Of a DNA stretch of 64,000 nucleotides, positions 5,752-47,080 are shown piece by piece. The stretch's first letter is position 1. Each line of letters begins with the position of its first letter. The stretch is from contig NC_005363.1 of NCBI RefSeq assembly GCF_000196175.1, positions 1,984,001 to 2,048,000 of the forward strand, read 5' to 3'. The translations under genes and the position numbers were made by a program. The notes beneath the pieces were generated by a model. The model was not told where the DNA came from and made no database searches. It saw nothing but the letters and a program-made list of their open reading frames with translations. The DNA comes from Bdellovibrio bacteriovorus HD100 (GTDB taxonomy: Bacteria > Bdellovibrionota > Bdellovibrionia > Bdellovibrionales > Bdellovibrionaceae).

Positions 5752-5826
5752 AAAAGGTACCTGCTTACTTTTTCCGAAGCAGCGCATCTAGCACAGCGCT
5801 TCGGAAAAAGTAAGCAGGTACCTTTT
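5752..5826. repeat. 29-bp perfect inverted repeat after guaA
   Basis: Left arm 5752-5780 and right arm 5798-5826 are perfect reverse complements over 29 bases, with a 17-base loop. The outer ends read AAAAGGTACC and GGTACCTTTT. It begins 3 bases past the guaA stop. Each strand ends in a T4 run, so it could terminate guaA transcription. A perfect 29-bp stem is far longer than an ordinary intrinsic terminator, so a dispersed palindromic repeat used as a terminator is also plausible. No second copy is evident in this window. Confidence 0.85.
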
Positions 5827-20361: not shown

Positions 20362-20841
20362 TTACAACTCGCGAACGCGAGCTTCGATTTCTGGAACTTC
20401 ATTCAGGTGATTTTTCGCCTGGATGATGATCTCAACAGCGTCTTTCTGAAGCAAACGGCCGGCAGCCATTTTTTCACAGATCAGAGCTTCCAACTTGTCA
20501 GTGATTTCGTAAACAGATTCATGCTGTGGCCACAGATTTTTAGCATCGTTGCTGCCACCGGCACAAAGCGGGATGTAGTGATCGATCTTGAACGCCTGAC
20601 GCTTCATAGAGCGCGTTCGGTAACCGATCTGGTCGTATTTTTGGAAGATGCCAGCCTTCTGGGAAGAAGACACATCACGTTCACAGTATTTAATTTTTTC
20701 TGGGTAACGGTATTCAGAAGGACGGTTGCAAAGTGCCCCCGGTGTCAGGGAAGCATCTGGTCCCTTGGGGAAGGCTTCGTAAGCCTGGGACATGGAAACA
20801 GAGAACAAAAGAACAACAAAGAGAACTGCGCTCTTCAACAT
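20362..20841 (-). CDS. Secreted HNH-type nuclease
   Basis: A 159-residue exported protein: the signal peptide MLKSAVLFVVLLFSVSMSQA is followed by a mature domain of about 139 residues. The HNH-like core reads FKIDHYIPLCAGGSNDAKNL then WPQ, with Asp87-His88 as the catalytic pair and Asn102 and His107 as further candidates. The pattern IDHxxPL-GGSN-NLWPQ is known from a family of small bacterial HNH endonucleases. Four cysteines (38, 53, 93, 122) could form disulphides outside the cytoplasm. Export of a DNase past the inner membrane fits digestion of prey DNA by a predatory bacterium, but that role is inferred. It has its own promoter region and a strong terminator. Confidence 0.88.
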   Translation of the reverse strand: MLKSAVLFVVLLFSVSMSQAYEAFPKGPDASLTPGALCNRPSEYRYPEKIKYCERDVSSSQKAGIFQKYDQIGYRTRSMKRQAFKIDHYIPLCAGGSNDAKNLWPQHESVYEITDKLEALICEKMAAGRLLQKDAVEIIIQAKNHLNEVPEIEARVREL

Positions 20842-21001
20842 ATATTCGCTCCAAATAGACTGCCCTTTACGGTGGCAGGTAGAAACGTCAGACCCTATCT
20901 CCGACTTATATTTGTGTAACCGCGGTTAGTAGTAACGGCGAGATTTCCTCTTTGCAATAAAAAACTAAGGCCCCTAACGCACCCAGCCTATGTCCCCACA
21001 C

Positions 21002-21036
21002 AAAAAAAAAGACCCACCCTCATCAGGCAGGTCTTT
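21002..21036 (-). terminator. Intrinsic terminator for the histone-like gene transcript
   Basis: On the minus strand AAAGACC pairs with GGTCTTT, extended by two G-U pairs, and T9 follows (A9 at 21002-21010). It lies about 155 bases beyond the stop codon, which would give the mRNA a long structured 3' region. Confidence 0.75.
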
Positions 21037-21065
21037 CTAAAAATTCTATTCAAGAACAACTTTAA

Positions 21066-21188
21066 GGCCGTTCAAAAGGGTTCAGCCGCAAGGCGGAGGC
21101 CCCTTTTCGCAACGGAGGCGTGCTCCAAGCACGTCGGAGAGAAGAAAAGGGGCCGACAACGCAGTCGGATGGGCCCTTTTCAACGGCC
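21066..21188 (-). other. Nested-stem element in the 3' region of the histone-like gene
   Basis: A 123-base element of nested and side stems, starting 2 bases past the stop codon at 21191. Outer stem: 21066-21080 with 21174-21188 (14 of 15 pairs). Inner stem: 21098-21108 with 21144-21154 (11 of 11). Side hairpins: 21086-21089 with 21093-21096, 21119-21124 with 21128-21133, and 21153-21157 with 21164-21168; the last overlaps the inner stem by 2 bases. It reads like a multibranched RNA or a composite palindromic repeat. I do not recognise a known RNA family. Confidence 0.6.
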
Positions 21189-21190
21189 GA

Positions 21191-46850: not shown

Positions 46851-47080
46851 GTGAAACTCCTGAAGGATCATTCTTTATAACAAGTCCGGCGGAATGACAA
46901 AGAACCACACTTAACGCGGCGCGCCCCGAGTGCGGGTTTACAACTTGAAATACTGACGCCCCATCGCCAGAAAAAACAACCAGGCACCTTTTCTAACTGG
47001 GAATAATATACTCCGGCGGAGCGTCAATCCATTCTTTCTCCATGCTTTGTGTGTATGAGAGTTCGCAAAGGGGCACTTTT

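Follow-up and report, generated by a model that had tools for sequence, protein, structure and literature searches.

The structure that directly follows a histone-like gene of Bdellovibrio bacteriovorus HD100, in the window studied here (a stretch of 64,000 nucleotides, positions 1,984,001 to 2,048,000 of contig NC_005363.1), is one copy of a previously unnamed family of dispersed repeats, each about 127 bp long. The reading that we prefer, with a probability of roughly 55%, is that this copy belongs to a non-autonomous, dispersed, folded-strand mobile element lodged at the 3' ends of genes. The parts of the copy and its immediate surroundings are collected in Table 1.

Table 1. Features of the window copy and of the adjoining DNA (positions in the window)
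Feature	Position	Strand	Basis
Whole element (model positions 1–127)	21064–21190	+	Covariance-model match, 150.4 bits, E 2e-30; fold
Outer stem, 5' arm (7 + 11 bp, C·C mismatch at 21073)	21066–21084	+	
Conserved core, internal loop 1, 5' side: GCAAGGCGGAG	21088–21098	+	Near-invariant A1 columns; kept across phyla
Inner stem, 5' arm (sequence freely exchangeable)	21098–21108	+	Perfect 11 bp with 21144–21154
Conserved tip hairpin: GGCGTGCT/CCA/AGCACGTC	21117–21135	+	
Inner stem, 3' arm	21144–21154	+	
Conserved core, internal loop 1, 3' side: GACAACGCAGT	21155–21165	+	Near-invariant A1 columns; kept across phyla
Outer stem, 3' arm	21170–21188	+	Fold, consensus
298-aa Lys/Ala-rich, acidic-tailed 'histone-like' gene; the element abuts its stop codon	21191–22087	-	ORF
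Separate terminator-like hairpin with T tract, downstream of gene and element	21006–21038	-	

On the + strand, which is the folding strand in the window and lies antisense to the histone-like gene, the copy forms an unbranched rod made up, in order, of the outer stem, a conserved asymmetric loop, the inner stem, a second loop and the tip hairpin. A sequence-only reading of this DNA had described an element at 21066–21188 with an outer stem and a perfect 11-bp inner stem, placed very close to the gene's stop codon and followed by a terminator. All of these features were recovered: the element ends 2 bases from the TAG of the minus-strand gene (21193–21191), and the terminator-like hairpin beyond it is a distinct structure. 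The copy holds far more structure than chance would give: the 127-nt + strand has a minimum free energy of −72.6 kcal/mol, against −44.5 kcal/mol for shuffled sequences (z = −7.7, with none of 200 shuffles as good); the complement folds less well (−61.5 kcal/mol). The multibranched shape with three side hairpins that had been proposed did not hold, since neither the fold of this single copy nor the consensus of 27, 70 or 112 copies contains such hairpins; all of them give the same rod, which has no branches, two internal loops and a single tip hairpin. The AAAAGGG theme noted in both the outer and the inner arms is indeed present in this copy, but the inner stems of other copies are unrelated to it, and so are the outer stems found in sister genera.

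Because the 298-aa protein matched no Pfam family, the label 'histone-like' rests on its composition. On the minus strand of the same region, a purine riboswitch (RF00167, 51.7 bits) was found at 20836–20933, directly upstream of a 159-aa ORF (20362–20841, minus strand) whose product is probably secreted and looks HNH-nuclease-like by eye, with no Pfam match. In a predator, a purine switch that precedes a putative nuclease deserves attention.

In the HD100 genome, a single contig of 3,782,950 bp with dnaA at base 1, BLASTN matched 29 places, and a covariance model built on 27 copies (R1) gave 38 matches at about 32 loci. The copies expected in the genome and in its relatives, if the structure were a composite palindromic repeat, were therefore found, and their arms covary, so that this option of the sequence-only reading proved right. 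Other Bdellovibrio genomes carry from no copy (G004) up to 57, with 46 in G012. In sister genera the stems are completely different while the core is kept, roughly as GCnAGGCGGA ... GGCGTRC/GYACGTY ... CAACGnAG, and a broader model (R2) found matches in 85 of 241 genomes, representing 56 of 142 genera of the phylum. A pattern built on the core alone picked out 71 stretches among named GTDB genomes, the carriers including Desulfobulbaceae, Syntrophaceae and other deltaproteobacterial MAGs, as well as Rokuibacteriota, Glassbacteria and Omnitrophota; most of the stretches that were examined were confirmed by R2. The viral contigs and phage records searched held no copy, and one copy lies on a 48-kb plasmid of Bdellovibrio sp. 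HAGR004 (AP029178.1:32509-32619).

Rfam 15, at both gathering and permissive thresholds, gave no match at the window element, and at 18 loci from sister genera and other phyla it recognized tRNAs only, with no match at the copies. The literature searched yielded no paper on Bdellovibrio repeats and no description of the element. Many multicopy palindromes without a name are described in genome papers on Geobacteraceae; the consensus motifs in their main texts differ from the element, and a partial earlier sighting among these 'multicopy sequence' families, compared here through those main-text motifs alone, is possible (PMC2700814, PMC2996986, PMC3543383).

The compensating pair changes that would support a conserved fold are abundant. 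In an alignment of 70 copies from Bdellovibrio and sister genera (A5), 97.6% of the pair cells are standard pairs, compared with 72.9% after shuffling and about 40% when partners were slid; the covariation score is 0.66, versus 0.18 (shuffled) and at most 0.17 (slid). Double compensatory changes occur in 34 of the 38 pairs, including every one of the 21 pairs of the outer helix. A5 was fitted to the covariance model, which favours the model, and a MAFFT alignment of 27 copies already had double changes in 22 of the 38 pairs. Across the 112 Bdellovibrio matches, G·T cells outnumber A·C cells by 161 to 23 (columns with wobble as the rule left out), and the + strand is more stable than its complement in 109 of the 112; outside Bdellovibrio, the folded strand is the more stable one in 36 of 40 cases. 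The G·T excess and the greater + strand stability imply that one strand does the folding, and this would apply to RNA and single-stranded DNA alike. An excess of C-to-T changes is usual on the leading strand, and as a mutation bias it would give the opposite sign; mutation bias was considered as the source of the G·T excess and is improbable. As judged from the aligned sequences, then, the fold is under selection, with one strand favoured.

The copies occupy a narrowly defined site. We surveyed 112 matches, 110 of them full-length, using mechanical ORFs as gene calls, and found an antiparallel gene on the 3' side of the element in 101 copies. In 71 of the 110 the 3' end of the element falls within −3 to +3 nt of the antiparallel stop codon, a closeness reached by 0.94% of random intergenic insertion points. 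In 8 further copies the gene overlaps the element by 11 nt and terminates at a TGA made by the element's own TTTTCA. Distances to the gene on the 5' side are spread across hundreds of bases, and ordinary terminator-like hairpins begin at a median of 20 nt from the stop codon. The abutment recurs in sister genera and in other phyla. In an Omnitrophota MAG (L258, 2572–2768) the element's 3' end lies right against that of a tRNA-Arg gene running antiparallel to it, suggesting that the target may be the gene's 3' end rather than the stop of translation. The host genes are functionally mixed (PGK, FKBP/SlyD-like, Tgt, Fur and PstB, named by eye from sequence). Tandem head-to-tail copies were seen at L104, L110, L112 and L113 (all in G012), at L172 (G011) and at L244 (a Desulfobulbaceae MAG). 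Their spacing is 0–14 bp, reaching about 48 bp in L244, and the A/C-rich spacer of G012 resembles the usual left flank.

A second short dispersed repeat, AAAAGGTACCTGCTTA, occurs in the window at 5752–5767 (+), 5811–5826 (−) and 46977–46992 (−), where none is expected by chance. Longer forms of it adjoin several copies of the element and, in G002 (L186), abut a stop codon.

The orientation of the copies follows the replication fork. In HD100 all 32 of 32 loci agree: copies on replichore 1 lie without exception on the minus strand and those on replichore 2 on the plus strand, so that the folded strand is the leading-strand template. Orientation switches between 1.594 and 2.005 Mb, an interval that includes dif (1.947 Mb) and the change of sign in GC skew (between 1.90 and 1.95 Mb). 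Among the best-scoring copies listed for 12 genomes with mapped dnaA and dif, 154 of 160 agree with this polarity, as do 138 of 138 listed copies in the nine genomes with balanced arms; these counts include orthologues, so the copies are not all independent. Agreement was weaker in two genomes with unequal arms, G006 (3/7) and G015 (10/12). One more copy, in G021 (3,390,645), runs against the polarity, and so does the second copy of each of two inverted pairs (L124 and L154). Only 63% of genes are on the leading strand, so gene direction does not account for the polarity by itself, and we rejected gene-orientation bias as its sole cause.

To follow turnover, we read the orthologous sites of 12 HD100 copies in G002 and G023, two relatives with 86–98% DNA identity. 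Presence/absence differences of the kind that mark a dispersed mobile repeat were evident. Five of the 12 copies (L036, L038, L041, L043 and L047) are absent from both relatives; L046 is absent from G002 and cut down to CGGTTTTA in G023, and L059 is absent from G002. For most loci, loss in the relatives is indistinguishable from gain in HD100. L043 (3,422,459) presents a precise empty site, without visible target duplication, and is the one clean site of this kind. An AAAAGG..CCTTTT-type hairpin stands in place of the copy at L041 and L047 (both relatives), L038 (G023) and L059 (G002), and a decayed one where the copy would be at L036 in G023.

Copies that persist are also replaced. Orthologous copies beside proteins that are 95–99% identical fall into two classes, with 13 pairs at 95% identity or more, 12 pairs at 90% or less and none between; the low-identity class is closer to what random pairs show (mean 78%). 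At the window site itself, the protein is 99.7% identical between HD100 and G023, and the element 85%. At L053 (HD100 1264544–1264668; the G002 orthologue is L189), both arms of the inner stem have changed together in the G023 orthologue L178, the tip hairpin between the swapped arms and the outer parts being unchanged, which suggests an arm-templated or patchy conversion. The split identity classes, together with the joint arm changes, imply that replacement or conversion of copies takes place in situ and preserves the pairing. Such swaps at fixed sites could reflect ectopic gene conversion rather than new insertion.

This in-place swapping with pairing kept is also what one would expect if the copies were complex 3'-end elements kept by the host, as bidirectional terminators or 3'-end stabilizers, that spread by duplication and gene conversion without transposition, with position and orientation maintained for their function. 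The presence of terminators at the same sites in relatives fits this view, as does the conservation of the element's place at some genes across the genus (the FKBP-like gene in G000, G002, G023, G017 and G022). However, it does not readily accommodate the precise absences between close species or the second terminator at the window copy, and a terminator role alone explains neither the fork polarity nor the preference for folding on the antisense strand. We therefore consider it rather unlikely, even as the foremost alternative. Compared with intrinsic bidirectional terminators, the element shares the sites where relatives have AAAAGG..CCTTTT hairpins, but it is three times longer, repeated and polar, and lies 0–3 nt from the stop codon instead of a median of 20; the T tract in its stem is short (4; TTTT).

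A less probable explanation is that the copies are attC-like single-strand recombination sites of an unrecognised tyrosine-recombinase system. In integrons, too, a folded bottom strand lies just past a stop codon, antisense to the gene, with structure kept over sequence, and in sedentary integrons that strand is on the leading-strand template, an arrangement thought to limit rearrangement (PMC5371416). The copy at a tRNA 3' end could be taken in the same sense. Against this, the element has no R/L box core: the RYYYAAC...GTTRRRY motif was found at the ends of 0 of 70 copies, and on this ground we rejected membership of attC. The adjoining genes are core genes that occur without the element in relatives, which means that no cassettes move, and copies are mostly single and dispersed.

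That the + strand encodes a family of trans-acting small RNAs strikes us as similarly improbable. Strong RNA-like covariation, tolerance of G·U on one strand and invariant loop nucleotides would all suit an RNA, but no promoter-like site was found beside the window copy, the transcript would be antisense to the adjoining gene, and none of the 8 published HD100 attack-phase sRNAs overlaps any copy. Two narrower proposals of the sequence-only reading, a small RNA derived from the 3' UTR of the histone-like gene and an RNA controlling that gene, are not supported either: the fold that is selected lies on the strand antisense to the gene, copies follow many unrelated genes, and no promoter-like site was found next to the window copy.

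REP hairpins often stand near stop codons, as the element does, and they are dispersed with single-strand polarity, and HD100 has four Y1-like genes; yet a REP/REPIN-type element moved by a RAYT (TnpA_REP, Y1) transposase is very improbable, as the element is about four times longer, only 2 of 70 copies have a GTAG/GGAG tag in their first six bases, no HD100 Y1 gene is flanked by copies, and the element thrives in genomes without Y1 transposase genes (G012, with 46 copies, G016 and G007). G012 and G016 rule out such a transposase as a required partner. Two Y1_Tnp-like genes (L172 in G011, and G019:C4:566385-567096) do have their ends about 0.3 kb or less from a copy, on the copy's 5' side. A reverse transcriptase was dismissed as partner because it is absent from most carrier genomes. 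No mobiliser thus emerged among these two classes of gene, which counts against the mobile-element reading.

With ERIC/RU-1 and the MITE-like palindromes BOX, RUP, EFAR and Nezha, the element shares a length of about 127 bp, a dispersed intergenic location, a large palindrome, non-coding character, copies in the tens and the lack of a transposase of its own (PMC3733652 for the list; PMC2759123 for RU-1 length). The terminal inverted repeats typical of MITEs of the DDE type are represented by the outer stem, which is present in nearly every copy, with variable sequence. Unlike these repeats, the element has a conserved internal-loop core, fully exchangeable stems, a 3' end anchored to the ends of antiparallel genes, a polarity that follows the fork and a distribution over several phyla. 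No target duplication was seen at the single clean empty site.

Under the preferred reading, that of a folded-strand mobile element, the repeat would spread in single-stranded form, folded as a rod, with a putative protein binding its two conserved internal loops, and movement or conversion would proceed via this folded single strand. A copy would lodge where a terminator normally stands and might then serve as the gene's 3' end or as a bidirectional terminator. The polarity could arise either by insertion into single strands exposed by replication or through the loss of unstable copies that carry the fold on the lagging-strand template; we slightly favour loss, because the strong fold is on the less-exposed strand. 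It is possible, as a tentative extension, that the family represents a class of mobile elements spanning several phyla, which fold as single strands, have a conserved two-loop core and freely exchangeable stems, and are inserted in step with the fork at the 3' ends of genes by a host or trans-acting enzyme.

Small palindromic repeats are common, but for few of them is it clear what moves them or how they choose their sites. In this family, sequence is enough to show the target (within a few bases, the 3' end of a gene on the leading strand), the polarity and the strand that folds, in a model predator that can be cultured and whose close relatives offer clean empty sites, so that hypotheses on insertion, exchange and termination can be put to the test. 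The repeat can also serve directly to mark the direction of replication and stability that depends on the fork.
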